Below, piece by piece: positions 17,585-62,782 of a DNA stretch of 64,000 nucleotides. How positions within the stretch are numbered: the stretch's first letter is position 1; each line of letters begins with the position of its first letter. The notes beneath the pieces are model-generated. The model had not been told where the DNA came from, ran no database searches, and was given only the letters and a program-made list of their open reading frames with translations. The stretch comes from Fibrobacter sp. (GTDB lineage: Bacteria > Fibrobacterota > Fibrobacteria > Fibrobacterales > Fibrobacteraceae): assembly GCA_024398995.1 (NCBI GenBank), contig JAKSIE010000001.1:1-64000 (forward strand), written 5' to 3'. The translations under genes and the position numbers were made by a program.

Positions 17585-19138
17585 ATGAGAAAGCAAATTT
17601 TGGCATTCGGCCTTATGGCTGCAACTGCATCCATGTCTGCTGTCATCAGCGACTTTGAAAAGGATACCCAGGCAAGTGTCGGTACCGACACATATTGGTA
17701 TTTCTACAATGTGGATGATAAAGGCAACGGTACCGCATCTGTCACTAACAAGGACGATGCTGAATACGGTGGAAAGATCATCAAGCTTGATGACGCTGGC
17801 AATGGTATTATGGGCATTGAAGGCATTGTCCTGGATAAGGGCGCTATGTCCTACTCTCCCCAGGTCGCTATGGGCATTGGTGACGACAAGAAGGGCTTGG
17901 CTGGTGAATTTGCTAGCTGCACCACCATTAGCTACAAGTACAAGGGCGCAGCTCATTACCTCAAGGTCCAGATGACTACTGAAACCGATGGTGATCCTCA
18001 GCATCGCGCAACTCAGGTTGCTTCCACCGCCTGGAAGACTGTGACTGTTAAGACCGCTGACATGGAACCTGGTTGGAAGTCTGCTGACGCAACCGACTTG
18101 GTCATGTCTAAGGTGTTCAAGATGGCTTTTGTTGTTGAAGCAAATGCAACTCCGACTCCGGACTACCTCTATATCGATGACGTGACCTGTGGTGGCTCTG
18201 CTACTGGTACCGGTACCGGCACTGGCACTGGAACTGGAACTGGAACTGGTACGGGCACTGGCACCGGTACTGGCACAACGACCGGTGGCGCAGGCCTTAT
18301 CTCTGACTTCGAAAAGGATGGCGGTTCTGCCCTGACCTCTAAGAGCAAGACCTCCTACTGGTACGCATACATGGTTGATGGTGAGGGTGCTGGCGTTGCT
18401 ACCATCACAAACGAACCTAACGAATATGATGGCTACGTGGTGAACTTCACCGACGCAATCACCGGTGGCTATGCTGGCCTCAACGGTATCGTTCTTGCCA
18501 AGGGTGATTACGAATGGACTCCGCAGGTTGCTCTCGGCCTGGATCTCACCGCTGGTGAACTTAAGGGTTGCACTTCTATTTCCTACAAGTACCAGGGTGC
18601 AGCACACTACCTGAAGGTTCAGATGTCCACCGAAAAGGATGGCGATCCTCAGCATCGCGCTTCCCAGGTTGCTTCTACCTCCTGGAAGTCTGTGAAGGTT
18701 ACCCCGTCCACCATGAAGCCGGGTTGGGAAACCGAAACTGCAAGTCCTACCCTCGACATGGCTAAGGTTGTCAAGATGGCATTCGTGATTGAATCCGAAA
18801 CCTCTCCGACTCCGGACTACCTGTGGATCGATGACGTTGCTTGCGCAGGCGCAGCATTCGCCGCAACCTCCACTAAGCCTATTGGCATTGCTCCTGTTGC
18901 AAAGTCTGTTGGTTTCACTGCAAAGGCTATGGGCTCCTCTGTGATGCTTACCTCCGCAGTTGGCGCCAGTGTCCGCGTCCAGGTGTTTGACATGATGGGC
19001 CACGTGGTTGCAAGCCAGACTGGTTTCATGATGCCTGGTTCTCAGCAGTTCAGCTTTGCAAAGCTTTCTCAGGGCAATTACGTTGTTCGTGCCACTGTTG
19101 GAAGCAAGATGCAGACTGTTCGCATGAGCATCAAGTAA
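17585..19138 (+). CDS. Secreted two-module carbohydrate-binding-like protein with Thr-Gly linker
   Basis: A 517-residue secreted protein. The signal peptide covers about residues 1-19. Two homologous modules of about 180 residues (21-204 and 238-425) share ISDFEKD, the block SYKYKGAAHYLKVQM-TE-DGDPQHRA-QVAST-WK, PGW and PDYLYIDDV-C. They look like galactose-binding jelly-roll domains related to CBM11 or CIA30-type folds. A (Thr-Gly)12 linker joins them. The C-terminus is a sorting-like tail (VRVQVFDMMGHVVASQ ... NYVVRATVGSKMQTVRMSIK). There is no catalytic domain, so binding of plant polysaccharide is the most likely role. CAGGAGAA lies before the ATG. The gene is monocistronic with a terminator after it. 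Confidence 0.7.
   Translation: MRKQILAFGLMAATASMSAVISDFEKDTQASVGTDTYWYFYNVDDKGNGTASVTNKDDAEYGGKIIKLDDAGNGIMGIEGIVLDKGAMSYSPQVAMGIGDDKKGLAGEFASCTTISYKYKGAAHYLKVQMTTETDGDPQHRATQVASTAWKTVTVKTADMEPGWKSADATDLVMSKVFKMAFVVEANATPTPDYLYIDDVTCGGSATGTGTGTGTGTGTGTGTGTGTGTGTTTGGAGLISDFEKDGGSALTSKSKTSYWYAYMVDGEGAGVATITNEPNEYDGYVVNFTDAITGGYAGLNGIVLAKGDYEWTPQVALGLDLTAGELKGCTSISYKYQGAAHYLKVQMSTEKDGDPQHRASQVASTSWKSVKVTPSTMKPGWETETASPTLDMAKVVKMAFVIESETSPTPDYLWIDDVACAGAAFAATSTKPIGIAPVAKSVGFTAKAMGSSVMLTSAVGASVRVQVFDMMGHVVASQTGFMMPGSQQFSFAKLSQGNYVVRATVGSKMQTVRMSIK
18203..18274 (+). repeat. 12-copy hexanucleotide tandem repeat encoding (Thr-Gly)12
   Basis: Twelve in-frame copies of ACYGGN encode alternating Thr-Gly between the two binding modules. 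Codon third positions vary (GGT, GGC, GGA), which limits slippage but does not remove it. Confidence 0.9.
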
Positions 19139-47422: not shown

Positions 47423-48727
47423 TTAAAGTCCGAATGCGGCGGGGAATCCGCTGTACCACGTGTCGTTTGCCTTGTCATAGGCTTCGAAGCCGCCTACACC
47501 CACAAAGCCCCAGTAAGTCCAGGACATTCCGTAAGCTTCGGCGTTCTCGATGACTTTCTGTGCCCACTGAGCCTTCTTTTCTTCGGAGGGACCAGGAAGC
47601 CCCTTTCTTATGCAAGGACCGCCCGGGCCACCGGAAATGCCGAACTCACCCATGTTCATGGGGATGGGCTTGCCGTTGATGTCCGGATACAGGTCCATTG
47701 CCTCGGAGACGTATCTCGGAATATCGTCGAAGGCGGTGCTTGCGTATGCGGCGTCGCCCTTACAGGCGTAAAGGCTGTTGTGGCCCTGGTGGCTATATTC
47801 GTAGGGCTCGTAGTAGTGGCCGGAATAGATAATATTGCCGTCCTGGGGCAGTTCAAGAGCCTTCAGGGACATGAACTTTGCAGAACCATAGGCTTCGAAC
47901 ATGATGGTCTTGTTGGGGTCGGCGGCGCGGATGGCGTTGTAGCCGGTCATCATGACGTCGTTCAAAGCTGCGGGACTGGACATAGTCGGTTCGTTCAAGA
48001 TATCCCATACCAGCATGGTGTCCGGGAAATCCTTGAATTCTGTGGCAACTTCAGTCCAGATTGCTGCGAAGTGTTCCTTTTCGGCTGCGTAAAGTTCCGG
48101 GAACTTGTTTGCATTGGAGGCGAAGAAGTTGATTTCGTAGTACCAGTGGAAACTGACGATTACGGCAAGGCCTGCGTCGATTGCCAGCTTAACGTCTTCC
48201 TTGACTCCAGCCAAACGGTCCGGGTTGACCTTGTGGGTGACAGGGTCGGAATTGAGCTGCCAACGCACGGGAATACGGACAGAGTTGAAACCTGCGTCCT
48301 TGATAATCTGGAAATATTCATCCTTGATGGGGTTGCTCCATGCGGCGTCGAGCATGTCATCGCAGTCAATATTATAGCGGGAGAGGGGGATGTTGCCGAA
48401 GTACTGGGCGTCAAGTCCGCTAAAATATACGGGGTATTCCACGCCGTTTACGGTGTAGAATGTGGTGTCGCTGACCCTATCTTGGGCATCGTAGTTCAAA
48501 GTGCCACAGCTCCAATAAGCTGCTGCATCCCAGGCGTTACCGAGGTTGATGCCTTTTCCAAGTCGCTTGTTCATGGCGCGGCCCTGGGAGTAGTCTACAG
48601 GGACGACTACATGGGTTGTTTCCTTTTCGTCATCCTTGTCTTCAGGGATGGCGGAGTGGGTGTTGCCACTGTCACAGGCAACCATGGCGAGGCCGAAAGA
48701 GAGTACAAAGGGGATCAGTCGTTTCAT
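47423..48727 (-). CDS. GH5 endoglucanase-like lipoprotein
   Basis: A 434-residue cell-surface lipoprotein enzyme. The lipobox MVAC gives a lipidated C18. The GH5 (beta/alpha)8 domain begins at GKGINLGNAWDA, the usual cellulase N-terminal motif. The acid/base is E246 (WDILNEPT) and the nucleophile E361 (PMNMGEFGISG). FNSVRIPVRW and SFHWYYEI supply conserved substrate-binding residues. An insertion of about 65 residues (70-135, with CGTLNYD and NIDCDD) sits near the active-site entrance. It has no binding module or sorting tail, so lipid anchoring replaces the usual route. Cellulase, mannanase or xyloglucanase activity are all possible in GH5. Confidence 0.85.
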   Translation of the reverse strand: MKRLIPFVLSFGLAMVACDSGNTHSAIPEDKDDEKETTHVVVPVDYSQGRAMNKRLGKGINLGNAWDAAAYWSCGTLNYDAQDRVSDTTFYTVNGVEYPVYFSGLDAQYFGNIPLSRYNIDCDDMLDAAWSNPIKDEYFQIIKDAGFNSVRIPVRWQLNSDPVTHKVNPDRLAGVKEDVKLAIDAGLAVIVSFHWYYEINFFASNANKFPELYAAEKEHFAAIWTEVATEFKDFPDTMLVWDILNEPTMSSPAALNDVMMTGYNAIRAADPNKTIMFEAYGSAKFMSLKALELPQDGNIIYSGHYYEPYEYSHQGHNSLYACKGDAAYASTAFDDIPRYVSEAMDLYPDINGKPIPMNMGEFGISGGPGGPCIRKGLPGPSEEKKAQWAQKVIENAEAYGMSWTYWGFVGVGGFEAYDKANDTWYSGFPAAFGL

Positions 48728-48961
48728 TTTGCCCTCAAAGGTAAAATTGTTCTTTACATAAAACTAAACATTTTCATTCTTAAGGAATACAGCTATTCAA
48801 AAATAATGTGTTTACTACTGAAAACGCGAAAAACAGCCAAAAATACAAAAAAAACGTTGTGGAAACCGCTTTTTCGCATTCTTTTTGGAAATGAGTTTTT
48901 TCACAGGGTAAAAAAACAATTTATATTGTAGCCTATCCGAATTTGGAGATTTTTAGGCATT

Positions 48962-49705
48962 ATGAAAGCAAATCCGCATAAAGCAAGCTGGTTGTGCGCC
49001 CTGGGCGTACTTCTTTTGGCGTCGTTCTCTTTTGCTGGTTATGGATTCAGCGATTATCGCGATCGTGACCAGTCCCGTTTTGTAACTAAGCAGGCTAAGC
49101 CTTTCCGTCCTGACAAGGACGTGGTGTCCGTGGTGATGCGTGAAGCTATTCCTCGTGGCGGTGGCTACGTTTACCAGTACCCTCGTGAAAACCCGGAACC
49201 GGTTTTGACTGATAAATTCGCTATGGAAGGTGCCCTTTCCATGGAGATCGAACTTATTGCCAGCGACTACTCCGGCGTGGCTATTTGTATTGCGGGTTCC
49301 GTGGACTTGGAACCGTACTACGAAGAAGGCGTTGTGGAATTCTGGATTAAGGGTTCCCAGGGTGGTGAAAATGCATTGTTCGTGCTGGTTGACGACGGTG
49401 TGAAGACCGGTGGTGAATCCATGCAGGTTAAGCTCCGTTCCAAGAGCCTTGGCGAAATCACTACCGAATGGAAGCGTTTCAGCATTCCTCTGAAGCTCTT
49501 CGGCCGTACCGGTGTTTACTGGGATGCCAAGAACACTCGTGAAGTGATGCTTCCCTTCAGCTGGACCAACTTCAAGGGTTTCCGTCTTGAAGTTCGTAAG
49601 GACGAAAACGAGTTCTTCAAGGTCTGGATTGACGATATTGTCATTAAGAAGCATGGTAAGGCTTACGAAGGCCCGTCCAACTACCCGTTCCGTAACGAGA
49701 TTTAA
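48962..49705 (+). CDS. Secreted CBM11-like protein, first gene of the outer-membrane operon
   Basis: A 247-residue exported protein. The signal peptide is about residues 1-25 (ends SFSFAGYG). The mature part is one jelly-roll-like domain: LTDKFAMEGALSMEIEL, GVVEFWIKGSQGGENALFVLVDD, TTEWKRFSIPLKLFG, FKGFRLEVRKDENEFFKVWIDDIVI. This order of strands resembles CBM11 and related galactose-binding folds, so glycan binding is likely. No catalytic domain or sorting tail is seen. It begins a six-gene operon; the next gene is 15 bp away. A TATATT box lies at 48922-48927, with TTTGGAGATTT upstream of the ATG. Confidence 0.65.
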   Translation: MKANPHKASWLCALGVLLLASFSFAGYGFSDYRDRDQSRFVTKQAKPFRPDKDVVSVVMREAIPRGGGYVYQYPRENPEPVLTDKFAMEGALSMEIELIASDYSGVAICIAGSVDLEPYYEEGVVEFWIKGSQGGENALFVLVDDGVKTGGESMQVKLRSKSLGEITTEWKRFSIPLKLFGRTGVYWDAKNTREVMLPFSWTNFKGFRLEVRKDENEFFKVWIDDIVIKKHGKAYEGPSNYPFRNEI

Positions 49706-49720
49706 GAGGAATAGGATTAT

Positions 49721-52219
49721 ATGCGCAAATTACCGTTTATTGCAACAACCCTGCTGTGTTCCTCTCTAGCACTGGCTCAAGAGGACGCTGTTCAGGAAGA
49801 TTATTCTACTGATACTGCCGTAGAAACTCCTGCCGAAGAAGCTTCCGCTGTCGAAGAAGCTGCTCCTGCCGAAGAGGCCGCTCCCGCCGATGAATCTACT
49901 GAAGTCGCCGAAGCTCCTGCCGCAGACGCAGCCGCTGAACCGGCACCCGCAGAAGAAGCTCCCAAGAAGGAACTTGCTAGCACTGCTCCCGTAGCCGGAC
50001 CGGCGCCTGTGGTCGCTGCTCCTAAGAGCCTCGCTCCCGCAGCCCAGATTGCTGTTGTCGAAGAGAATGAGAACGCCCTCACCGAAAACATGGAATCTAC
50101 CCTGCTTGGCAAGGACGATCTGCCGCTGGCAGTCTCCGGTTACATGGCCTTCCGTCTTAAGAACTTTAACTACTCCAAGGGCAGTCCTTGGACCGCAGAC
50201 GACGCTGCTCGTACACCGGTGGATGCAGTCCTTAACATGAACATTGTGGCTATGCCTAACAGCTACATGACCTTGTGGACTAACATCTCCTTCCCCTTCG
50301 ACCTGACCAGTTTCTATACAAACTATCTGGGCGACAAGCCGAACGACGTCCCGACTCATGACCACCGCGTTGCTTTCGACCACTCCACCGATTTCTACTC
50401 CGTTTCTATTAACGAAGAAATGAACGTGGGTGTGGATATCCGTGCTGGCGTGTTCGGTGCATACGTTACCGCCGGTGGTGTTATCTGGGCAAACTCTTCT
50501 CCGCTTACCATGTGGGAACGTGAAACTGCTCCTCGCTTTGCTTGGCAGTATGAATTGTTCGAAGATGAAAAGACCGTAAGTACCTACTATAAGGAAAAGG
50601 TCTTTAAGCCGGTTAAGGAAGGTGGTCGTGCTTTCTGGACCAACCGTTCTTTCGGTGGCGTCTTTGCTAGCGTCTATCAGCTGCCTTTCGATATGAAGGC
50701 CCAGTTCCTTCTGTCCCAGCCTGCTGACGCTGACATCGGTACCCGTGACGGTCTCCGTATGTATGGTGGTCAGCCTGGTGAACTGGAAATGTCCGGTACC
50801 TACGACTTCCGCGGTTCCATCTACCACGGTCGTGTCGCTAAGGAAAAAATCCTTGACAACCTGACCCTTGGTCTTAACTACATGGGCGTGGTGTTCGATA
50901 ACGACATCGTGTACGAAAGTGAATTCCGCGATCAGTGGGTTGTCTTCTCTGATGTTGGCCCGACTGTCCTGAATAACCATGTAGCTTCTATTGACATTAA
51001 GGGTAACATTACCCCGAAGCTGTACCTCATGGCTGATGTGGCTGTGAACATGACTGACTCTGTCCGCTTCGAACAGACTCCGGACGCTTCCGATTACAGC
51101 GCCGTCGATAAGAGCTCTGGTTACCTGGCTGACAACTTCAGCCACAAGACTAATACTCCTCAGGTTGGTGTGTACGTCAAGGCTCAGAGCAAGTATATCG
51201 AAGGCTGGCCCATGACTGTTGAAGCCATCTTCCTGCCTAAGGATTTCTACTCTCCCTATTCTATTTCCAACCCCTCTCGTTTCACCAGCTGGCGTAAGGA
51301 TGAATCCTACCTTAACGGTGGTTCCCTGCGTTACACTCCCAACATGGCTGGTATTAACCTCAAGATTGAACCGACCTTCAACCGTGGCTACTTTGATATC
51401 CAGTACGGTCAGCATCGTCAGATTGAAGATGGTCAGGACATGATCTACTTCAACTACCGTCTGAATGGCCGTAACATGTGGGAAGGCACTGGTTCCTGGA
51501 CCAAGCATAAGCCGATTTTCGTTGCCGACTCCGGTATGACTAACGGTTCTGCTTATATCGCTCGTTCCGGTGTTCAGCAGATTACCAGCCAGGGTATTAA
51601 GCAGTACCGTCAGCAGGGTGGTCTCTATGGTGGTACCTGGGAAATGTGGGAAGGCTTCGCAGCTTACGAAAACTCCGAACAGATTGCCAACGGCGAAGTT
51701 CCGTCTAGCACCAAGTGGTTCTCCTACCTCTCCTTCATGGGCGGCTATGATATCGGTGGCTGGTTCAACACAGAGCGAACCATCATGATGACTGGTTATG
51801 CAGCACTTTCTGGTGTCTCTAAGTCCTTTGCTCCGGTTGCAATCAACGAATCCACGTTTGACATGCTCCTGTGGAGCTTCTATGGTCAGTTCGAACCCGC
51901 TGTGGCTGTAACCCCGTCCTTCCATGTGGTCGGTATCCTCGGCTTGGAAACCTTCCGTTCCGAATATGGTTACACCAAGAGCGAATTGACTTCCAGTATT
52001 AAGGGTGGCCCCATGGGCGGTCAGTACACCTTGTTCTACTACAAGAAGTCTCCGATCAACTACCTGGAAACAGCAATCGGTCTTGGCTTTGACTGGGACT
52101 TCTCCGACCGCGTTGGTCTCCATGCACGTTACAAGTACATGACCCACACGGACGAAACGGTCTCTCTGAACGATTGGCATTCTCACTACATCGCCGCCGA
52201 AGTTAAGGCTTGGTTCTAA
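49721..52219 (+). CDS. Large outer-membrane beta-barrel-like protein with Ala/Pro/Glu linker
   Basis: An 832-residue exported protein. The signal peptide is about 1-19 (LALAQED). Residues about 20-110 are a low-complexity Ala-Pro-Glu linker like periplasmic spanners. The remainder (about 125-832) has many amphipathic strands rich in Tyr, Phe and Gly and ends with AAEVKAWF, a C-terminal Phe as in outer-membrane barrels. No known family motif was recognised. It lies 15 bp after the CBM11-like gene and 15 bp before the next barrel gene. Very biased codon use suggests high expression. Confidence 0.65.
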   Translation: MRKLPFIATTLLCSSLALAQEDAVQEDYSTDTAVETPAEEASAVEEAAPAEEAAPADESTEVAEAPAADAAAEPAPAEEAPKKELASTAPVAGPAPVVAAPKSLAPAAQIAVVEENENALTENMESTLLGKDDLPLAVSGYMAFRLKNFNYSKGSPWTADDAARTPVDAVLNMNIVAMPNSYMTLWTNISFPFDLTSFYTNYLGDKPNDVPTHDHRVAFDHSTDFYSVSINEEMNVGVDIRAGVFGAYVTAGGVIWANSSPLTMWERETAPRFAWQYELFEDEKTVSTYYKEKVFKPVKEGGRAFWTNRSFGGVFASVYQLPFDMKAQFLLSQPADADIGTRDGLRMYGGQPGELEMSGTYDFRGSIYHGRVAKEKILDNLTLGLNYMGVVFDNDIVYESEFRDQWVVFSDVGPTVLNNHVASIDIKGNITPKLYLMADVAVNMTDSVRFEQTPDASDYSAVDKSSGYLADNFSHKTNTPQVGVYVKAQSKYIEGWPMTVEAIFLPKDFYSPYSISNPSRFTSWRKDESYLNGGSLRYTPNMAGINLKIEPTFNRGYFDIQYGQHRQIEDGQDMIYFNYRLNGRNMWEGTGSWTKHKPIFVADSGMTNGSAYIARSGVQQITSQGIKQYRQQGGLYGGTWEMWEGFAAYENSEQIANGEVPSSTKWFSYLSFMGGYDIGGWFNTERTIMMTGYAALSGVSKSFAPVAINESTFDMLLWSFYGQFEPAVAVTPSFHVVGILGLETFRSEYGYTKSELTSSIKGGPMGGQYTLFYYKKSPINYLETAIGLGFDWDFSDRVGLHARYKYMTHTDETVSLNDWHSHYIAAEVKAWF

Positions 52220-52234
52220 TAGGGGGTGCAGAAT

Positions 52235-54490
52235 ATGAAAAAGACTATGAATATGAAAAAGACTTTAGCCGCTGTTCTCGTCACCTCTATTGCAGCATCT
52301 GCTAGTGTGGCTCAGAATCAGGAATTGATTGAAAGCAAGGTTGATTCCATCAACGCGAAGCGCGGCTTGGAAATTGGCGGTAGCATTCGTGCTGTTGCCC
52401 AGTCTTCCTCCTTTAGTACCGATCAGGACCCCACCGGTAAGAACAAACTGCCTTCTGTAGAAAAGGGCGAATTTGTTACTGGTGACCTCGTTTTCGGTTT
52501 CCGCCCCTATGAAAATGTCCGAGCAAATGCAACCCTTCGCTTGGAAGGCGGTATGCAGGAATACTTTGCCGCCGCAGCAAAGAGCGTTTCCGCTTCTTGG
52601 CTTAATATCGAAGGCAACATCGGCAATTCCGTGTACTGGGTTGTGGGTGACTTCCGTCAGGAATACTCCCCGCTGACCTTGTTCTCTCCGGGCCTCGACA
52701 TTATGTACGAACCGCAGATTTTTGCCCGCAAGCGTTACATGGCCCAGAAGGAACAGCTCCTCGAAGGCAACCAGCGTAATCTTCAGGGTGCAAACATCCA
52801 GTTCCGTCAGGACCTTAGCCCGGTTCTCGGCCAGGTTCGTGCCGAAGCAATCTTTGCTCGTTTGAACCGTACCGCAGTTTTGGACCTTGGCGGTGCCGAA
52901 GGCAACATCCTTCCCAAGGACGAAGTTTGGGGCGCATCTCAGGCTTCCAATACTGATAAGTGGTTGGCTGCAGGTAACATCGAATTGCTGCCTTTCAACA
53001 AGACTGCATACTTCGGCGTAACTCCGATGTACGTATTCGATAACGAAAAGACCTACTCCTATACTTACCGTCGTCAGGATGGCGATGCTACCAATCCCTA
53101 CGAGAAGCAGGACATTAACCCTTACGAACTGAATCCGCAGAACACAATGGTTATCAGCGCTCGCGCAGGTGCTGACATTGGTTCCATTATGGGCAGCAAG
53201 AACCTGATCTTGGATGGTACTGCTGAATTCGCAATGTCCATGGACAAGGCCTACAAGGTTGACTCTTTGAAGGCTCTCGATGATGGAGGCGAAGAAGTAA
53301 TGCTGTTCAACTTCACCGAACAGGATCTGAATGGCATGGCCTTGTTGGTCAACCTCAATGTTGGTTATCAGACTGACAAGTGGGGCGTCAAGGTTGCTGT
53401 GGACGGTGTCTACAATGACAGCAACTGGTTCAACAACTTGGCTCAGTCTCCTTCCTTCTTTGCTCAGCGAATCCTGAACTCCGATAAGGATGGTAACACT
53501 GTCAAGTATGCAGTGAATTCTCCGCTGTACTCCACCTTCGATGCTCTCTACAACTTCAATCCGAAGTTCTCTCCCGTAACCAGAGGTTTGGGCACTAACG
53601 ACGACGCATTCAGGGCTGGTCAGACAAACAGCTATAGCATTGCAAACTACAACAAGAACTCTTGGACAACCAACGTTTACACCCGTAATCAGTTGGCTCT
53701 CCTCGAAACGCTCTCTGACCCGGCTTTGCAGATGTCCTTGCCCAACGGCTTGGCCACCTCCAACCGCGCTGGTGCTCGTGCAACCTTGACTGCTAACTAC
53801 GGCGAAGCCGTGGAATTCCAGGGTATGTTCAGCTACTTCCAGCAGGTATCCGGCGTAACCCAGCAGTTCTTCAATAACTACGAAGGTGCCGTCTTGACCG
53901 CCAACTACAAGCCCGCTACCTATATGGAATTCGGTGCAGGCGCAAAGGTTGATGTATTCAAGCTCCTTGGTTTCTCCAAGCCCCTCGAAATTTCTGGTTC
54001 TTATAAGCATTCCGAAAGAACTCTTGAAACCGACAACTGGGTTGAACTCGCAGCATTCGGCCTGATCGATGAAACCACCTCCCTCAAGAGCGACTTCATC
54101 AATGCCGGACTCTATGTTCAGTATCTGCCCCGCCTGGGTGTGAACCTCGGTTTCCAGATGGTCAATACCGAAATGACAAGTCTTAACCAGATGAACGTTT
54201 ACGGCATTGGTTACAAGAACCCGATGGTAAAGAGCTCTCAGATGCAGTGGATGGCCGGTCTCGACTACAACATTGCTCCGAATGCTTGGTTGGCAATTAA
54301 CTTCGGTATGGTGTCTGTCTCTAACGACTACAACACCACTAAGTCTCTGTCTGCTGACGGTACTTCTGCTAAATACAGCGACGCAACGAACTTGCCGGAT
54401 TATATTTCTAGTACGGATGGCCTGACTGGAACTTATACTCATAAGTTCTCGCAGACGATTCTTGAAGCTTCCATTAACGTGGAATTTTAA
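52235..54490 (+). CDS. Outer-membrane beta-barrel-like protein, paralog A
   Basis: A 751-residue exported protein with a signal peptide (MKKTLAAVLVTSIAASASVAQ). The start lies in a near-perfect 18-bp duplication, so translation could begin at 52235 or 52253; AGGGGG at 52221 favours 52235. The body is strand-rich and ends EASINVEF. It is clearly paralogous to the next gene. Shared stretches are YSPLTLFSPGLDIMYEPQIFARKR against YTPYTLYTPQQQLLQEPEIFAQKR, and LPNGLATSNRAGARATL against LPYGVATPDRQGLKAAL. It likely forms a porin-like or structural barrel at the surface. Function is unknown. Confidence 0.65.
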   Translation: MKKTMNMKKTLAAVLVTSIAASASVAQNQELIESKVDSINAKRGLEIGGSIRAVAQSSSFSTDQDPTGKNKLPSVEKGEFVTGDLVFGFRPYENVRANATLRLEGGMQEYFAAAAKSVSASWLNIEGNIGNSVYWVVGDFRQEYSPLTLFSPGLDIMYEPQIFARKRYMAQKEQLLEGNQRNLQGANIQFRQDLSPVLGQVRAEAIFARLNRTAVLDLGGAEGNILPKDEVWGASQASNTDKWLAAGNIELLPFNKTAYFGVTPMYVFDNEKTYSYTYRRQDGDATNPYEKQDINPYELNPQNTMVISARAGADIGSIMGSKNLILDGTAEFAMSMDKAYKVDSLKALDDGGEEVMLFNFTEQDLNGMALLVNLNVGYQTDKWGVKVAVDGVYNDSNWFNNLAQSPSFFAQRILNSDKDGNTVKYAVNSPLYSTFDALYNFNPKFSPVTRGLGTNDDAFRAGQTNSYSIANYNKNSWTTNVYTRNQLALLETLSDPALQMSLPNGLATSNRAGARATLTANYGEAVEFQGMFSYFQQVSGVTQQFFNNYEGAVLTANYKPATYMEFGAGAKVDVFKLLGFSKPLEISGSYKHSERTLETDNWVELAAFGLIDETTSLKSDFINAGLYVQYLPRLGVNLGFQMVNTEMTSLNQMNVYGIGYKNPMVKSSQMQWMAGLDYNIAPNAWLAINFGMVSVSNDYNTTKSLSADGTSAKYSDATNLPDYISSTDGLTGTYTHKFSQTILEASINVEF

Positions 54491-54505
54491 TGGGAGGAAG
54501 CGAAT

Positions 54506-56629
54506 ATGATGTTCAATAAGAAAATTTCCGCTTTCGGTCTTACTTCTGCAATCTTGTTCTCCGCTACCGCAGCAATGGCTGAAGGTGAAAGCGTTGAAAC
54601 CCAGCAGAAAACCCTTTTGCAAAAGTTGGATTCCCTGAACGCAGCCGTTCTTGGTCTCAGGATCAACGGTACCGCAAAGGCTGGCGCCTTGGCTTCTATG
54701 GCAGGCTCCGATCAGTTTAGTGCTGATTCTCCGACTCAGGAAAACCAGGCCTTTACCGATGTAAACCTGGCCTTCACTGCTCGTCCCAGTTCCGAAACTC
54801 AAGTGCGCTTGGAAATGCGCCTTCATAAGGATTGGCAGAGTGGCTTTGATGAAAACAACAACCCGATGATTGGCCACTGGTTCTCCTATGATGGCAAGAT
54901 CCTGGACAAGCATGTTGATTTCAACCTCGGCTACATGAAGGTTGCCTACACCCCGTACACCCTGTACACTCCGCAGCAGCAGTTGCTGCAGGAACCCGAA
55001 ATCTTTGCTCAGAAGCGTGTTGAAGCTATGGCCCAGCGCAATCTGGATACCACAACCGCTCGCTTGATGCAGGGTTTGAATGTGGATTATCACAGCGGTA
55101 ATATCGGCCCTCTGTCTGACATTCATGCTCAGGCAACTGGCGCCCGTATGCGTAACACCGCCAAGAAGTACGACCAGGTGTTCTTCGACTTCGACTATGC
55201 TGACCGTTACTTCTACGGTTTGCGTGCCGGTGCAGAACTCTTTGGTGCAAACCTCGGCGTGAACTATACCGATGTGTTCGACCGTCATAAGGGTGCTCGC
55301 GCTCGAATGACTTTGAGCGACGTGGTTCATTACGAAGACAACTCCATCCTGTCTGTTGAACTGGGTTTCAACTCCAAGGAAATTTTGCCGACTCTGCCGG
55401 TTGAATTCGGCTTGAACGGCGAATACGCAATGTCTTGGTTCTCTGCAGATAAGGATTATAAGACCAAGGTCGCTGACTATACCTATGACCTGCAGTACAC
55501 AAACGTCTATGGCGACTCCATCATCATCGTCGTTCCGTACATTGACTCCGTTGCCAAGATTGTCAATGAAAAGGAAGGCGAAGCTAATGGTTCTGCCTTC
55601 TACATTGAACCTTATGTAAATCTTGACATGGCTGGTATCCAGGTCGAAGCCAAGGTTATGTACATCAAGAACGACGAAAACTTCTGGTCCGAAATGGCTT
55701 CTAGCCCGGTCTACGAAGGTAACGGCGTTGTCTTGAATGCAAATGCAATGTATAGCACCGACGCATATACCAATTTGGTCAACAAGTTCGGTATGTCTAG
55801 CCTCGAAAACATGTACTTTGCAGTGTACAACTCTAACCCGTTGAACCTGACAAACCTCATGACTTCTGAAACGAGTAAGAATGCCTTGACTAACACCAAG
55901 GAAGACGGAAAGTACTTCAACACTCGTCAGTTCAACAACTACAAGAATGCTCACTTCTATCGCAATGGTTACAATGCCGAAGTGATGAAGCGCAGAGAAA
56001 TCTCTGAAGCCCTGGTCAATATGGATCCGTCCGTAAGCATGGAACTGCCCTATGGCGTTGCTACTCCGGACCGTCAGGGTCTCAAGGCTGCTCTCAACTT
56101 CCACTGGAACGATGCTGTTGAAGTCAATGCAGTCTTTGCAAAGCTCGACGAATCTGCTGCAACCAAGCACGACGCTGACGGCAAGATTGTTGATGGCGAA
56201 ACCGAAGCCAACAGCTTCATGCGCTATGGTGTAGGCTTGGGCCTCGATATCGGCCGTTTCATTCCGGATATGGGTCTCGGCGTAAAGCTCCAGCTGTCCT
56301 ACGATCATGCTGAAGAAGATGCTTACCTGGAACGTTCTATGAACCGCTTGATGGGTGGTCTTTCTGTGGGTCTCTTCAACAAGGTTGACGTCCTGGTCGG
56401 TTACCAGACTTCTTCCAAGACCTTTGGCAAGCCTCTCGTAGTCGGAACAAACGCCATTACCAAGACCGAAGAATCCTTGCTTCTGGCTGGTCCGCGTGTA
56501 AAGATTGCTCCTAATTCCTTTGTGACTGTACAGTACGGTCGTTTGACTGACGAAGTCATTCTGAAGGATAACAACGAACTTTCCATCGACAAGGATGTCC
56601 TCATTGCCGATGTAACGGTAAACTTCTAA
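54506..56629 (+). CDS. Outer-membrane beta-barrel-like protein, paralog B
   Basis: A 707-residue exported protein with a signal peptide of about 25 residues (ATAAMAEGES). It shares conserved blocks with paralog A throughout, including the N-terminal coiled segment (LLQKLDSLNAAVLGLRINGTAKAGA against IESKVDSINAKRGLEIGGSIRAVA). It ends LIADVTVNF with a C-terminal Phe. GGGAGGAAG lies 6-8 bases before the ATG (a second ATG follows at once). It is 15 bp after paralog A and 10 bp before the lipoprotein gene. The two barrels may form a hetero-oligomer. Confidence 0.65.
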   Translation: MMFNKKISAFGLTSAILFSATAAMAEGESVETQQKTLLQKLDSLNAAVLGLRINGTAKAGALASMAGSDQFSADSPTQENQAFTDVNLAFTARPSSETQVRLEMRLHKDWQSGFDENNNPMIGHWFSYDGKILDKHVDFNLGYMKVAYTPYTLYTPQQQLLQEPEIFAQKRVEAMAQRNLDTTTARLMQGLNVDYHSGNIGPLSDIHAQATGARMRNTAKKYDQVFFDFDYADRYFYGLRAGAELFGANLGVNYTDVFDRHKGARARMTLSDVVHYEDNSILSVELGFNSKEILPTLPVEFGLNGEYAMSWFSADKDYKTKVADYTYDLQYTNVYGDSIIIVVPYIDSVAKIVNEKEGEANGSAFYIEPYVNLDMAGIQVEAKVMYIKNDENFWSEMASSPVYEGNGVVLNANAMYSTDAYTNLVNKFGMSSLENMYFAVYNSNPLNLTNLMTSETSKNALTNTKEDGKYFNTRQFNNYKNAHFYRNGYNAEVMKRREISEALVNMDPSVSMELPYGVATPDRQGLKAALNFHWNDAVEVNAVFAKLDESAATKHDADGKIVDGETEANSFMRYGVGLGLDIGRFIPDMGLGVKLQLSYDHAEEDAYLERSMNRLMGGLSVGLFNKVDVLVGYQTSSKTFGKPLVVGTNAITKTEESLLLAGPRVKIAPNSFVTVQYGRLTDEVILKDNNELSIDKDVLIADVTVNF

Positions 56630-56639
56630 GAGGTGCACC

Positions 56640-57830
56640 ATGAAAAACTTGAAACTTATTCTTTCCGCTGTGGCTGCAACTCTTGTTGTGGGTTGCTCTG
56701 ACCTCGCCGTGAACGAAGATGCTGCTTACGCAGGTAACCTTCCGAGTAATTTTGACTACAAGACCTATGCTGAAATCAACCCGGCGTTGAAGTTTGCTGC
56801 CGTTACTCAGGCCGTTGCTGATTACAATGCCGAATATGCTGAAACCATTAAGACTCGTAACATCCTTAATAGGGATGTGAACGATTCCGCAGCATCCAAG
56901 ATTATCGCTGCTATCGTTAGGGCTCAGGCTGCTTGTGGTAGCGCTGAGTGTCCGGCCGTGGATAGCCTCAATGGCGTGATGCAGGCAAAGAAGGATTCTC
57001 TTGCTGCATTGGAAGCCACAGAAGCTGTCAAGGCCTACATTGCAGACTCTGTTAACTTCTTCTTGACCGACTCCGCCTCCATGTACCTTCTGTTTACGGC
57101 TCCTTGGGGTGGCTCGCTGAAGGGTTATAACGACTCTGTTTGGGCTAAGAGCTGGAATGTTACCAAGGATACCACCATTTACGATACCACAAAGACAACC
57201 CACATTTTCAAGTTGGCTGTTGTGGACAAGTCTGGTGAAACTCCTGATACCACTCGCGTCTACTTGAATACTGGTTTCCCCACCGCTGCCGATGCTAAGG
57301 GTAAGATCACTTACTCTGACACGGACCCCACAAAGATTGCTGCCGTCGAAGGTTTCACCGATACCACCTACGAAACTCCGGTATCTGTGACCATGGACGA
57401 AAACAAGTCTTTCCTTCCGAAGCTCAGAAAGGATACTACCGTCATTGGCAAGATCGATTCCACAAAGATTTCTACTCACTATGACGGACTTGATCCTGAT
57501 AAACTCAAGGACTTCAAGATTTTCAACTTCGTTAACAAGCCCGGCGATAATATCAATGACTACGAACGAGCTGAAAGTGTCGAGTTGGATTCTACAACCA
57601 CCACTCTCCAGTATGTTCTGGTTGGTAAGCTTAATGGTTGGGCATACCGCTATTGCGATGAATCCGAAATCACTCATGCTCGCGCTTGCGACGAAAGCAT
57701 CAAGAAGTGCGAGATGATGGAAGCTGGTAGTTTGCAGGATCTTTGCTTCAAGAAGCTGAAGTGCGACCTGTATCCGGCCACCAAGCTTTATTGCAAGAAT
57801 AAGGCTACTGGTTACTCTCACGAAATTTAA
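56640..57830 (+). CDS. Lipoprotein of the outer-membrane operon
   Basis: A 396-residue lipoprotein. The lipobox VVGC gives a lipidated C19. The N-terminal half is helical (KFAAVTQAVADYNAEYAETIK). The C-terminal third has many Thr and ends in a Cys-rich region (YRYCDESEITHARACDESIKKCEMM ... LCFKKLKCDLYPATKLYCKN), eight Cys that could form disulfides. No family is recognised. AAGAGGTGCACC precedes the ATG. Position suggests a periplasmic or surface partner of the barrels. Confidence 0.65.
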   Translation: MKNLKLILSAVAATLVVGCSDLAVNEDAAYAGNLPSNFDYKTYAEINPALKFAAVTQAVADYNAEYAETIKTRNILNRDVNDSAASKIIAAIVRAQAACGSAECPAVDSLNGVMQAKKDSLAALEATEAVKAYIADSVNFFLTDSASMYLLFTAPWGGSLKGYNDSVWAKSWNVTKDTTIYDTTKTTHIFKLAVVDKSGETPDTTRVYLNTGFPTAADAKGKITYSDTDPTKIAAVEGFTDTTYETPVSVTMDENKSFLPKLRKDTTVIGKIDSTKISTHYDGLDPDKLKDFKIFNFVNKPGDNINDYERAESVELDSTTTTLQYVLVGKLNGWAYRYCDESEITHARACDESIKKCEMMEAGSLQDLCFKKLKCDLYPATKLYCKNKATGYSHEI

Positions 57831-57848
57831 TGAAGGCAGGGTGATTAT

Positions 57849-58907
57849 ATGAATATCAAGACTATTGCTTTGACCCTTGCTCTTGGCGCCTTTGCTATGG
57901 CAAACGCTGCCGCTGACAAGGTTGTTGGTTTCTACCCGTACTGGAGCCAGTACTCTCAGTTCTATGCTAAGGATATTCGTTACAATACTGTAACTGATAT
58001 CCACTACGTTGGTCTGGTTCCTGGCGAAGATGGTTCTCTTGCATTCGCTGACGACTACGATGCTGAAAACTTCAAGACCCTGGCCCAGATGTCCAAGGAA
58101 AACAATGTCAAGCTCATTGTTTCTGTGGGTGGCAACGAAGCTGAAGGCAACCTGAAGGCAATCGCTTCTTCTGACGAACTGCTTTCTACCTTCGTTTCTA
58201 ATGTGAGCAGCTGGCTTTCTGCAAACGGTGGCGATGGTGTCGAACTGGATTGGCAGAATGTCACTGCAGACGATGCAGAAGACTACGCCAAGATGGTGAA
58301 CGCTCTTGTTGACGGTCTTTCCGGTTCTACCGTGACTGCCGTGATTTATCCTGCCGCAGGCATGGACGCTTACAAGGCCGACGCTCTGAACCGTCTTGCT
58401 TACGTTGACGTGTTCATGGCTGACCAGATGACTGAAGAAAGCTCTGAAGTTGTCCCGAACCAGAGTGCAACCTTTGTGAAGGAAACTTTGAATAGCGTCG
58501 TTAGCGCCGGTGTTAACGCCGACCTCCTGGTTCCGGTAATCTTCCTTTACGGCAAGACCTGGGCTGGTGCTCAGGGTCTCGGCACTTCTCATCAGGGTAC
58601 TGGTAGTGGTGACGAAGGTTATGTGAACTACGCAGAACTGATGAATAAGTTCGATACTCCTGACTACAAGGTGACCTTCGATGAAGCTACTCAGTCTGAA
58701 GTGGCTGTCAGCAAGGACGAAACCATCGTGTTCATGGGTATTCCTTCTGTGAAGGCTGTGGCTAAGCAGGTTAAGGCTGACGGAATGGGCGGCGTGGCCG
58801 TCTACGATCTCCATCAGGATCATCACGAACCCATTGTTTCTCTCTTGGTTACCATCGGTTTGGAACTTCGCCCGCAGGTGAACTACAAGCCCGGCAAGAA
58901 GAAGTAA
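57849..58907 (+). CDS. GH18-fold protein with substituted catalytic motif
   Basis: A 352-residue exported protein. The signal peptide is about 1-21. The mature protein follows the GH18 TIM-barrel plan: VVGFYPYWSQ at strand 1, VKLIVSVGGN at strand 3, GGDGVELDWQN at strand 4, and GMGGVAVYDLHQDHH at strand 8. The catalytic motif DxxDxDxE reads D129-G-V-E132-L-D134-W-Q136. The proton-donor Glu is Gln and the second Asp is Glu, so hydrolysis should be lost or greatly reduced. Known GH18 proteins with such changes act as sugar-binding lectins. It ends the operon, 18 bp after the lipoprotein gene, with a terminator at 58952. Confidence 0.8.
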   Translation: MNIKTIALTLALGAFAMANAAADKVVGFYPYWSQYSQFYAKDIRYNTVTDIHYVGLVPGEDGSLAFADDYDAENFKTLAQMSKENNVKLIVSVGGNEAEGNLKAIASSDELLSTFVSNVSSWLSANGGDGVELDWQNVTADDAEDYAKMVNALVDGLSGSTVTAVIYPAAGMDAYKADALNRLAYVDVFMADQMTEESSEVVPNQSATFVKETLNSVVSAGVNADLLVPVIFLYGKTWAGAQGLGTSHQGTGSGDEGYVNYAELMNKFDTPDYKVTFDEATQSEVAVSKDETIVFMGIPSVKAVAKQVKADGMGGVAVYDLHQDHHEPIVSLLVTIGLELRPQVNYKPGKKK

Positions 58908-58951
58908 TCATGGTTGCGGCTGGCCCGCTACCCATGACATTTGAAATTAGA

Positions 58952-58983
58952 AAGAGGACTGCTACGGCGGTCCTCTTTTTGCG
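58952..58983 (+). terminator. Terminator of the outer-membrane operon
   Basis: The stem AAGAGGACTGC / GCGGTCCTCTT (one G-T pair) around a TACG loop is followed by TTT and GCG. It is the only strong terminator in the ten kilobases from 48962. Confidence 0.8.
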
Positions 58984-59254: not shown

Positions 59255-61447
59255 TTACTTGTCGGTCTTGTTCCACTTGAGGGTCAACTGACGAGAGTCC
59301 TGACGGACAACGATCAGGTAAGAGCCTGTAGGAACGCGGTTCAAGGAGAAGCTTGCATAGTCGCCGTAGACGGTTCTGTTCATAACCTGCTGGCCGTTGA
59401 CGGAGAGGATGCTGACTTCGATGTCGCCAGCCTGCTTGCAAACGATATCCAGGGTATTGTTGTTGATGGTTGCCTGGACCGGAAGGTTTGCACTGATGCT
59501 GTTGATCTTCGAAGTGTTGTATTCTGCCAGGTTAACTGCGCTAGCGCTATCGCCGATAATTACGGTAATGCCATACTGGAACTTGGCGTACAGTTCGGTT
59601 TCTTCTGCATTTGCCATAACGCGGAGGACTGCGTTCTGGTTGCCGGCGACCAGTGAGGTACCCTGCTTGGTTGCATACGGGGTAGTGGGCTCACCGTTAA
59701 AGGTATATGTTACCGGAGTGTGGAGCGCGGTTGTATCCGGGAGCAGGTTTGCTGCGGTTGCACCAAGGGCAAGCTTGGTTTTCTTGAAGGTAGAGCCCAT
59801 TCTATTGGAGCCCTTGTTGTAGGTAACTGTGATGGTGTCGTTCATTTCCTTGTAGCCGTTAGCTGCAGCTGCCTTGGCGACAATCTTTGCAGTACCGAAG
59901 GACTTGAAATCGTACATGGTCACGAGCTTACCGGTCATGGTGCCGGAGCAAGCGGCTGCGCTACATGTGGCCTGCTTAACGGTAACGATTTCGGGATTCA
60001 AGGAAGTGATAGTAAAGGAGCTACCTTCCAGAGTCTTGGTATCGGCAGTAAGAACCCATTCCTTGGCGCCTTGTGTGCCAGAGAAGCTGGCGGTTCTACC
60101 GCTGGTGCAGGTGTTGGTGTAGTTACAGGTCAAATCGTAGAAACCGGTAATGCTCTGGCCCGGAACCGAGGTTACGGTAACCACAGACTGGGAGCCGTCG
60201 TTGCCGGTAAAGATTGCTACGCCGTCGCCGTTAACGACGATGTCGGAGCCAGAAGCTACGGCAACCTTTTCGTTGCTGGATGCGTAGGTACAACCGGCGG
60301 GGAGAGCGCCTGCAACCTTGCCATCGGTCTGCTTAACAGTCTTGGCCTTGAATGCGCAGGCGCCAGTGTTCTTACCTTCGACCATCTTGGAAGTCCAATC
60401 CTGGGCATTCTTCTTGAGGTAGTCAACGACAATCTTACCGGAGGAGCTCAATGTTGCGGCGTTGAGCTTGCCCGGGGTGGTCAGCTCTTCGCTACCAGCG
60501 AAGATTGCAGAGGTTTCGGCCTTTTCGCTGTAAGAGGAGTTGACTTGACGGAGGCTCCAGTTACAGTTACTGATGTTGTTCTGGTCCATAAAGTTGAGCC
60601 ATTCCTGGGTAGCCGAGGCGCTAGGATCTCCGGCGCCATCTGCCTTGGTGGTACCCCATTCCGTAACGAATACTGCGTTACCAGAAGCCTTTGCGTTCGT
60701 TGCGCGTCCACCATACTGGCCCTGACTGTGAGAAGCTGCATAGAAGTGGAGAACGTAGCCTACGTTGGTGCCGCTGACTCCACCGTATTGATCCATCTGA
60801 GACCAGTTGGGAGTACCGACAAGAACCAGGTTTTGGGAACTTGCGCGGATACCCGGAACCACGGCGTTTGCATAGCTCTGGATGGCGCTCCAACCCTGGT
60901 GAACCGGTTCGTTGAAGATTTCGAAAATAACGTTGGGAACCTTAGCGTATCTAGCAGCGACCTTGGTAAAGAAGTCCTTTGCAATAGACAATTCTGCATC
61001 GGCGCGATGGCTATGCCAGTCGATGATGATGTAGACGTCATTTTCGATGGCTGCTTCTACCATCTGGTCGAGGTAGTTCATAAAGCCTTCGGGAGCGGAT
61101 GCGTAGGCGTGAGCCTTGTCAATAGGTTCAGTTGCGGAGCCCTGGGAGTTGTAATAGGTGATGCCCATTGCAAAACGGAACACGTCGATCTTAAAATTAT
61201 CTACGGTCCAGTTGATGACGGTCTTGTTGTAGTAGGGAATGCCGGTTGCATCGGACCAGAAAAGGCTAACGCCGCGGAGCATGGCTTCTTTGTTGTTCTT
61301 GGAGCCGATGATCTTTCCACCGCTAGTTTGAAGGGCGCCGTAGTAGCTTACGGGGCCTGCTTTCTTTGCGACTGCAGTGGAAAAGTCTGCAAAGGCTGGG
61401 ATGGCTGCGAGTGCCATAATGCAGGGAATGAGTTTTTTAATCTTCAT
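59255..61447 (-). CDS. Secreted GH5 endoglucanase with Ig-like modules and sorting tail
   Basis: A 730-residue secreted cellulase-type enzyme. The signal peptide is 1-20 (IPAFA). The GH5 domain (about 35-345) has LRGVSLFWSD, FRFAMGITYY, IIIDWHSH, acid/base E180 (IFEIFNEPVHQGW) and nucleophile E263 (AVFVTEWGTT), the pattern of the GH5_2 endoglucanases. Residues about 370-600 hold two Ig/BIG2-like modules (SNEKVAVASGSDIVVNGDGVA, SLNPEIVTVKQATCSA) with several Cys. The end (IEVSILSVNGQQVMNRTV ... RQLTLKWNKTDK) is a sorting-like tail. I use the ATG at 61447 with AGGTGA upstream; a GTG three codons earlier is less likely. Confidence 0.88.
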   Translation of the reverse strand: MKIKKLIPCIMALAAIPAFADFSTAVAKKAGPVSYYGALQTSGGKIIGSKNNKEAMLRGVSLFWSDATGIPYYNKTVINWTVDNFKIDVFRFAMGITYYNSQGSATEPIDKAHAYASAPEGFMNYLDQMVEAAIENDVYIIIDWHSHRADAELSIAKDFFTKVAARYAKVPNVIFEIFNEPVHQGWSAIQSYANAVVPGIRASSQNLVLVGTPNWSQMDQYGGVSGTNVGYVLHFYAASHSQGQYGGRATNAKASGNAVFVTEWGTTKADGAGDPSASATQEWLNFMDQNNISNCNWSLRQVNSSYSEKAETSAIFAGSEELTTPGKLNAATLSSSGKIVVDYLKKNAQDWTSKMVEGKNTGACAFKAKTVKQTDGKVAGALPAGCTYASSNEKVAVASGSDIVVNGDGVAIFTGNDGSQSVVTVTSVPGQSITGFYDLTCNYTNTCTSGRTASFSGTQGAKEWVLTADTKTLEGSSFTITSLNPEIVTVKQATCSAAACSGTMTGKLVTMYDFKSFGTAKIVAKAAAANGYKEMNDTITVTYNKGSNRMGSTFKKTKLALGATAANLLPDTTALHTPVTYTFNGEPTTPYATKQGTSLVAGNQNAVLRVMANAEETELYAKFQYGITVIIGDSASAVNLAEYNTSKINSISANLPVQATINNNTLDIVCKQAGDIEVSILSVNGQQVMNRTVYGDYASFSLNRVPTGSYLIVVRQDSRQLTLKWNKTDK

Positions 61448-61858
61448 AGGAGTCACCTGTTTAATGTTTTAAACTCTAAAATATTAAAAGCTTGTCAGAA
61501 AGGGAGTTAGCCTTACTATTATTTACGTTTACTGTTGAGTACACCACAATCAACCCCCCGTAAAAATAACATCATTTATTATTAAGTAACCCCCATGGAT
61601 AGTAATAAAAAAGTTTCGTAAGTGCTAAGTGTGATGTAGATAACGCGAGGCGAATGCTCGAAATGGTGCGAAAAAAAGACAGTAATGTAAATTTTCGTAA
61701 TCAATTTGGAGTTTTTAATGCTATTTGAGCGTAGCGGCCCATGGACGTTCAGCGTAAGGAAAATAAAAAAAATTTTTTTTATACTTAGTTCGAAAAAAAA
61801 ATTATATTAGAGCACAAACAGCCCTTTTGGGTAAACACATAAACAAGAGAGAGATACT
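61448..61858. other. Long AT-rich intergenic region between divergent genes
   Basis: About 410 bp with no supported coding frame. The right half is rich in A and T tracts, with a TATATT box at 61803-61808, and GAGAGAGATACT precedes the next ATG. No repeat of note was seen. It probably carries promoters for both flanking secreted-protein genes. Confidence 0.5.
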
Positions 61859-62782
61859 ATGAATAAGAAGATTATTACTGCATCTGCAGCCCTCCTCGCT
61901 GCTGCATCTATGTCTTTCGGTTTCGTCACTTGGCACGGCGATGAAGAAGTCTACCAGGTCGATACCGAACTTGACGTTGGTGGTAACACCGCTGGTTACT
62001 GGTTCGATTACACCGATAAGGACGATGGTGGTGCTTCCGCTGTTGTTTGGCCGGCTGAAAAGGGTAATGGCTACGAAGGTGGCGACAATGCTCTTGACAA
62101 CATCATCCAGACCTGCAATGGCGTTTGCGGTACCGCAGCCCTCGCTAAGGGTACCCTTTCCTATGACCCGTTCATCGGCGTTGGTTTCAACGTTGGTGGT
62201 GAAGACGAAAGTGGTGTTCCGGCTGCTGTTGACGCTTCCGCTTGGGGTGGCATCTGCATTTCCTACTCTGTAGAAACTGGTGCTTCTATTGAAATGGGCC
62301 TCGGTGACGCTTTTGATAAGTCCCTCGGTTTCGACGTTCCGGCTGCTTCTGCTGCAAAGAACGCTGCTGGTACCACCAAGACCTTCGCATGGAGCAAGTT
62401 TGCACAGGCTGGTTGGGGCACGGGCGAAATTTCTGGCGAAGCCGCTGCTAAGCAGCTCGTCGCTCTGAAGTTCAAGATCCAGGCCGCTGCCGGTAACTAC
62501 GCATTCAACATCATGTCCATCGGTCCTCTGAACGGTGACTGTGCTCTGACCGCTGGTATGAGTGCAATCGAAGCTTCTGCAGCTCAGTCTTCTCTGAAGG
62601 CTCAGCTCTCTGGCCGTACCCTTTCCTTCGGCAAGACCGTTGCTTCCGCTGAAATCGTCAACCTCCAGGGTCAGGTTATCATGGCTGCTTCCTCTGTGAA
62701 GTCCATGGATCTCTCCAAGGTTCAGTCTGGCGTTTACATGGTTCGCGCAGCTGGTCTTTCTCAGAAGATCATCCTGAAGTAA
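61859..62782 (+). CDS. Secreted single-module protein with sorting tail
   Basis: A 307-residue secreted protein. The signal peptide is about 1-21 (SMSFGFVTW). One jelly-roll-like module (about 22-225) has WGGICISYSVETGASIEMGL, FAWSKFAQAGWGTGE and ALKFKIQAAAGNYAFNIMSIG, like the first domain of the protein at 19278-21947. The tail (RTLSFGKTVASAEIVNLQGQVI ... VYMVRAAGLSQKIILK) is a typical sorting-like domain. There is no enzyme motif. Strong codon bias, a long upstream region and a good terminator suggest an abundant product. Carbohydrate binding is inferred. Confidence 0.7.
   Translation: MNKKIITASAALLAAASMSFGFVTWHGDEEVYQVDTELDVGGNTAGYWFDYTDKDDGGASAVVWPAEKGNGYEGGDNALDNIIQTCNGVCGTAALAKGTLSYDPFIGVGFNVGGEDESGVPAAVDASAWGGICISYSVETGASIEMGLGDAFDKSLGFDVPAASAAKNAAGTTKTFAWSKFAQAGWGTGEISGEAAAKQLVALKFKIQAAAGNYAFNIMSIGPLNGDCALTAGMSAIEASAAQSSLKAQLSGRTLSFGKTVASAEIVNLQGQVIMAASSVKSMDLSKVQSGVYMVRAAGLSQKIILK

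Follow-up and report, generated by a model that had tools for sequence, protein, structure and literature searches.

A conserved six-gene operon of Fibrobacter encodes a candidate cell-surface complex for beta-glucan capture and uptake

We found that a six-gene operon in a 64-kb window of Fibrobacter DNA (the window being the whole stretch that was analysed) is real and conserved in gene order, and with moderate confidence we read it as encoding a cell-surface complex for beta-glucan capture and uptake, a functional counterpart of SusCD made from unrelated proteins. The CBM30 of gene 1 and the catalytically dead GH18 protein of gene 6 would keep cellulose chains or cellodextrins bound at the surface of the cell, and cellulases encoded elsewhere, for example the unlinked Cel51A, would cut the held chains. 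Two or three of the barrels of genes 2–4 would form the outer-membrane passage, the gene 5 lipoprotein may be an accessory, and an ABC importer of the SBP5 type, whose genes are linked in relatives but not in Fibrobacter, would carry the sugars across the inner membrane. We infer the surface location of the barrels, the complex, the channel function and the cellodextrin substrate. The mechanism of cellodextrin transport in Fibrobacter has been called unknown (PMC6851124); the operon names concrete, conserved candidates for the outer-membrane step and, if the proposal is true, may explain how Fibrobacter feeds without the usual SusC/SusD importer. The initial annotation of the window, which had proposed an outer-membrane assembly that binds polysaccharide, was partly supported: conserved order, barrels without a match to known porin families and published binding data for F. 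succinogenes S85 agreed with it, and its CBM11 label for gene 1 did not.

The six genes (Table 1) were annotated at the outset as co-directional with short gaps and a strong terminator, and this was confirmed. In the ORF listing of the window all lie on the + strand, separated by 15, 6, 15, 10 and 18 bp from gene 1 to gene 6. The second gap becomes 15 bp when counted from an ATG at 52235, which is preceded by a GGGGG ribosome-binding site; this ATG is probably the true start of gene 3, the GTG lying 9 bases too early. None of 200 shuffled sequences was as stable as the terminator. Inside the operon, terminator-like and promoter-like matches were no commoner than chance, and internal promoters and terminators were dropped as candidates. 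No match indicated plasmid carriage of the operon. All six products showed an N-terminal export signal when judged by eye, as had been proposed. The claim of biased codon use is valid to a moderate degree, because codon adaptation relative to ribosomal genes was 0.72–0.79 (ranks 2, 4, 6, 11, 13 and 14 of 43), above the window median of 0.67 for every one of the six genes. Two other ORFs of the window, at 61859–62782 (+) and 17585–19138 (+), had values of 0.826 and 0.771, matching or topping most operon genes.

Table 1. Features of the operon and its flanks, in window coordinates.
Feature	Coordinates	Strand	Basis or remark
Gene 1, secreted CBM30 protein, 247 aa	48962..49705	+	Pfam CBM30, 2.2e-16
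Gene 2, predicted large outer-membrane beta-barrel, 832 aa, phylum-wide core subunit	49721..52219	+	AlphaFold2, Foldseek, profile matches
Gene 3, predicted large outer-membrane beta-barrel, 754 aa from GTG	52226..54490	+	AlphaFold2, Foldseek
Gene 4, predicted third barrel, gene 3 paralogue, 707 aa	54506..56629	+	Gene 3 vs gene 4 families: hhalign probability 100, E 2.5e-60
Gene 5, lipoprotein, 396 aa, fast evolving	56640..57830	+	Lipobox LVVGC
Gene 6, catalytically dead GH18-fold protein, 352 aa	57849..58907	+	Pfam Glyco_hydro_18, 8.3e-31
Intrinsic terminator ending the operon	58948..58981	+	RNA fold −23.5 kcal/mol, z −7.1, U-rich 3' side
Promoter-like TTCACA-16-TATATT upstream of gene 1	48900..48927	+	Consensus match only; at chance frequency in the region
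GH5-like divergent flanking gene	47423..48727	-	Conserved neighbour outside the operon; GH5 name from the look of the sequence and type-B homologue context
GH5-like convergent flanking gene	59255..61456	-	Neighbour conserved in many genomes, outside the operon; putative GH5 name

Gene order was examined in 40 relatives with fetched neighbourhoods and in a separate scan of 84,980 species. Among the 40 relatives it was identical at every locus recovered from the genus. The scan recovered 77 loci, every one from Fibrobacterota; F. intestinalis ATCC 43854 and the termite Candidatus Fibrimonas are among the sources. Of these loci, 66 had six complete genes, identical in order and all on the same strand, and the other 11 were mostly cut at contig ends, with one fused and one frameshifted locus. 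No alternative order occurred among the 77. This conservation far exceeds chance and extends beyond the genus to termite and aquatic relatives, which settles positively a point that the initial annotation had left to genome comparison. In termite Fibrimonadales (L153, L154, L158, L161 and L162), same-strand GH5-like genes lie directly 5' of gene 1, several with −4 bp overlaps, and the operon of these relatives may therefore include cellulases. One genome bin, likely mixed, held two operon copies (G002:C23 and G002:C46). In another bin genes 2 and 3 formed a single 1635-aa ORF (L100:10001-14908); because the fused ORF lacks the last part of gene 2, C-terminal Phe included, where the two genes join, the fusion is likely an assembly or deletion artefact, and it was dropped as evidence of contact between the two proteins.

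Gene 1 had been described as CBM11-like, which proved to be wrong. It fits CBM30 (60.7 bits against a curated cut-off of 27), CBM_11 falling under its cut-off at E 0.005, and it matched the solved structures 1wmx and 2c24 weakly. It is the most conserved member of the operon, with at least 95% identity at 133 of its 247 alignment columns among 74 orthologues and a dN/dS of 0.04–0.05. Cel51A-type enzymes carry a homologue of gene 1 as their N-terminal CBM30, and the identity of gene 1 to the CBM30 of a type-B GH51-like enzyme is 44–46%. The conserved aromatics W128, W170, W187, W201 and W222 are suggestive of beta-glucan binding, and residues such as D188, R208 and N216 are common to gene 1 and cellulose-type CBM30 and absent from three sequences on the chitin-type side.

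Gene 6 matches the full-length Glyco_hydro_18 profile (108 bits, cut-off 29.6). It had been noted that its catalytic Glu is missing, and this was correct: the motif here is DGVELDWQ, DxxDxDxE being expected, and none of the 69 family members has the Glu (Gln in 55, Ile, Val or Leu in 8, Gly in 5 and Asp in 1), while two class-level relatives retain it in DGID(L/I)DWE. It also holds, as first proposed, that the operon in Fibrobacter contains no active enzyme. Between species the dN/dS of gene 6 is 0.08–0.09, a sign of strong purifying selection despite the loss of Glu, and the gene is thus retained for a non-hydrolytic role. Chitin hydrolysis by all Fibrobacteres had been inferred from GH18 genes (PMC4704652); since the gene 6 copy lacks Glu throughout its family, that GH18 count overstates chitin hydrolysis, and the GH18 reading in the phylum is corrected for this copy. 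A second GH18 in Fibrobacter genomes retains the catalytic motif, read as DGLDMDWE in L058:3-995.

Genes 2, 3 and 4 were initially taken for three large barrel-like outer-membrane proteins. Structure prediction agreed with this for genes 2 and 3, and homology for gene 4: each combines a signal peptide and a predicted large barrel with a C-terminal Phe. A C-terminal Phe is the typical BAM signal. The AlphaFold2 model of gene 2 had a pLDDT of 64 and a pTM of 0.66, with much of the barrel core at 80–90; that of gene 3 (pLDDT 76, pTM 0.78) had an N-terminal helix and about 22 strands, with residues 404–513 forming a helical insert. In gene 2, an Ala/Pro/Glu-rich N-terminal spacer (window 49780–50050) was present in some lineages of the alignment and absent from others. 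Genes 3 and 4 are paralogues. No homology between genes 2 and 3 was detected (hhalign probability 15.6), and gene 2 represents a barrel family not detectably related to genes 3 and 4. For genes 2 and 3 the Foldseek matches were all large outer-membrane barrels of a generic kind, with listed TM-scores of 0.5 or lower; for gene 3, chaperone-usher translocation pores ranked first, at low TM-score, and the attachment porin OmpM1 was among the matches. Genes 2–5 had no significant Pfam match, some gene 2 and gene 3 homologues gave weak OMP_b-brl and Porin_4 matches, and among solved structures gene 2 had no sequence relative and gene 3 two matches at chance level. The question whether the barrels belong to a known porin family was thus answered by the finding of no significant family or PDB match and no close fold match to a known porin or transporter. 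A TonB Plug domain was found neither in genes 2–4 nor in the aligned homologues of genes 2 and 3. Gene 5 had been called a Cys-rich lipoprotein; this is true of the protein in the window, which has 9 Cys and a lipobox, and not of the family, in which Cys richness varies. The lipobox was present in 58 of 69 orthologues, and the dN/dS was 0.18–0.29.

The pair of genes 2 and 3 is found across the phylum and, outside Fibrobacter, in two kinds of loci, both of which are new observations. The gene 2 profile matched 145 of 168 Fibrobacterota genomes, representing 31 of 41 genera. The chitin-type locus has the arrangement CBM30-b2-b3-b4-GH20-GH18-GH18, with three barrels. The cellodextrin-type locus, of which 26 were examined, has two barrels, an ABC sugar importer, a CBM30-CBM11-GH51-like enzyme and GH94/GH9. 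About 19 of the 26 had the barrel pair beside an ABC importer, either of a five-gene SBP_bac_5/BPD/oligo_HPY kind or, in one genus, SBP_bac_1/MalK; in most, the CBM30-CBM11-GH51-like enzyme came next after the barrel pair, and GH94 phosphorylase, glycogen phosphorylase or GH9 genes lay near the barrels. Both kinds of loci coexist in some genomes. In the gene 2 tree, Fibrobacter and chitin-type sequences were separated from the ABC-linked cellodextrin-type sequences with support of 100/100, some long branches occurring elsewhere. Fibrobacter itself has homologues of the Cel51A type and of SBP5, both unlinked to the operon, which contains no ABC gene. The ABC sugar importers and GH94 beside the same barrels in relatives strengthen the case for oligosaccharide uptake, and the second, chitin-type context, with its GH20/GH18 partners, suggested that the module follows the polymer. 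These contexts support the capture-and-uptake proposal in its glycan-specific form; the simplest reading is that the module is re-targeted by a change of partners and serves cellulose in Fibrobacter. Counting against uptake are the moderate confidence of the barrel models, the lack of a close transporter fold match, the failure to find a plug that would point to an energy source, and the absence of both an ABC gene and an active enzyme from the operon in Fibrobacter.

Published data on F. succinogenes S85 bear on the binding function. Its counterpart operon, Fisuc_1525-1530, was assigned through published tags, domains and gene order and spacing rather than sequence; the tags taken for the gene 1 and gene 6 counterparts open and close a run of six consecutive numbers, just as the two genes open and close the operon in the window. 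The gene 6 counterpart, FSU_2012/Fisuc_1530, is the GH18 protein CBP-9, reported to bind cellulose and located in the outer membrane, with about 6-fold more in the medium. Its expression is over the 90th percentile and stable or constitutive, slightly lower on cellulose (−1.30 fold). FSU_2007/Fisuc_1525, taken as the gene 1 counterpart, is a CBM30-only protein of the cell envelope and extracellular medium. These reports back the polysaccharide binding that had been claimed for the operon. The constitutive expression of CBP-9 and its slight decrease on cellulose would also fit a structural or adhesive role, and the main rival to our proposal is an adhesion complex only, in which genes 1 and 6 bind cellulose, the barrels anchor them and nothing is transported. 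Besides the binding, location and expression of CBP-9, the helix that precedes the gene 3 barrel and the presence of OmpM1 among its Foldseek matches are in favor of it. However, it leaves the linkage of the barrels to ABC sugar importers and GH94 in relatives unexplained, and three large barrels would make a costly anchor; we consider it possible but rather unlikely.

Less probable again is a secretion or display machine, in which the barrel pair would export proteins that bear CBM30 (gene 1 or Cel51A-type enzymes) or dock them at the surface, CBM30 being the docking part. CBM30 does adjoin the barrels in both kinds of loci, either by itself or as the N-terminal part of the GH51-like enzyme, gene 1 is the best conserved protein, and ushers top the Foldseek list for gene 3, but the TM-scores to ushers are low, the phosphorylases and sugar ABC importers of the loci point inward, and the CBM30 aromatics are kept, as for glycan binding. 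We give slightly less credence to the view that the barrels are ordinary abundant porins of the phylum, used for general solute diffusion and sharing a transcript by chance with two binding proteins. High codon adaptation and near-universal occurrence in the phylum are consistent with this, whereas the locus context is glycan-specific and varies with the polymer, the proteins of the window show no detectable known porin family, and the order is held across distant families. A chitin or amino-sugar system retaining an ancestral role is very improbable: although b2 groups with chitin-type loci and gene 6 is GH18-derived, catalytic Glu occurs in 0 of 69 gene 6 sequences, the operon has no GH20, the S85 GH18 binds cellulose, and the key residues of gene 1 match the cellulose type.

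Beyond capture and uptake in Fibrobacter, a wider and more tentative possibility, which we regard as less likely than not, is that the CBM30 protein and the gene 2/3 barrels are the core of a plug-free glycan importer specific to Fibrobacterota and independent of SusCD in origin. CBM30, alone or fused to Cel51A-type enzymes, might then act as a SusD-like docking lid, swaps of partner might re-target the importer between cellulose and chitin, and in Fibrobacter the chitinase partner might have become a non-catalytic cellulose grip.

Comparison with described systems places the operon as follows. The S85 proteins CBP-9/FSU_2012 and FSU_2007, which tag, domain and spacing equate with genes 6 and 1, are treated singly in the publications examined, and these describe neither an operon nor its barrels nor the loss of the active site; a search by locus tags and through the Fibrobacter literature, incomplete in coverage, likewise found no description of the operon, the barrels, the phylum-wide module or the genus-wide Glu loss of the GH18. 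Cel51A/EGF (CBM30-CBM30-CBM11-GH51) has a CBM30 homologous to gene 1, and in most of the other Fibrobacterota families that were examined its homologues lie directly 3' of the barrels; in contrast, it is unlinked in Fibrobacter, and gene 1 has no catalytic domain. The atypical cellulose PUL chu_1276-chu_1280 of Cytophaga hutchinsonii, likewise a cellulose specialist, is reported from three Bacteroidota species and is cellulose-induced; it comprises two outer-membrane proteins, a surface protein that binds cellulose and an endoglucanase and has no SusD (PMC12016534). It is similar in composition; compared by description, the Fibrobacterota module differs in being phylum-wide and, at least for the S85 GH18, constitutive. 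The genus had been said to be without SusCD, which holds for SusD (PF07980 matched in 0 of 25 genomes and in the Bacteroides control); TonB-dependent receptors with Plug domains are nonetheless present elsewhere in the genomes. Like the SusC/SusD PUL of Bacteroidota, the operon combines co-directional predicted outer-membrane barrels with candidate surface glycan-binding proteins and lipoproteins, and in Fibrobacterota relatives also with enzymes and an importer that change with the polymer. Unlike that PUL, it has no SusD, no TonB plug was detected in its barrels, two unrelated barrel families are used side by side, and in relatives the inner-membrane step proceeds via ABC importers.
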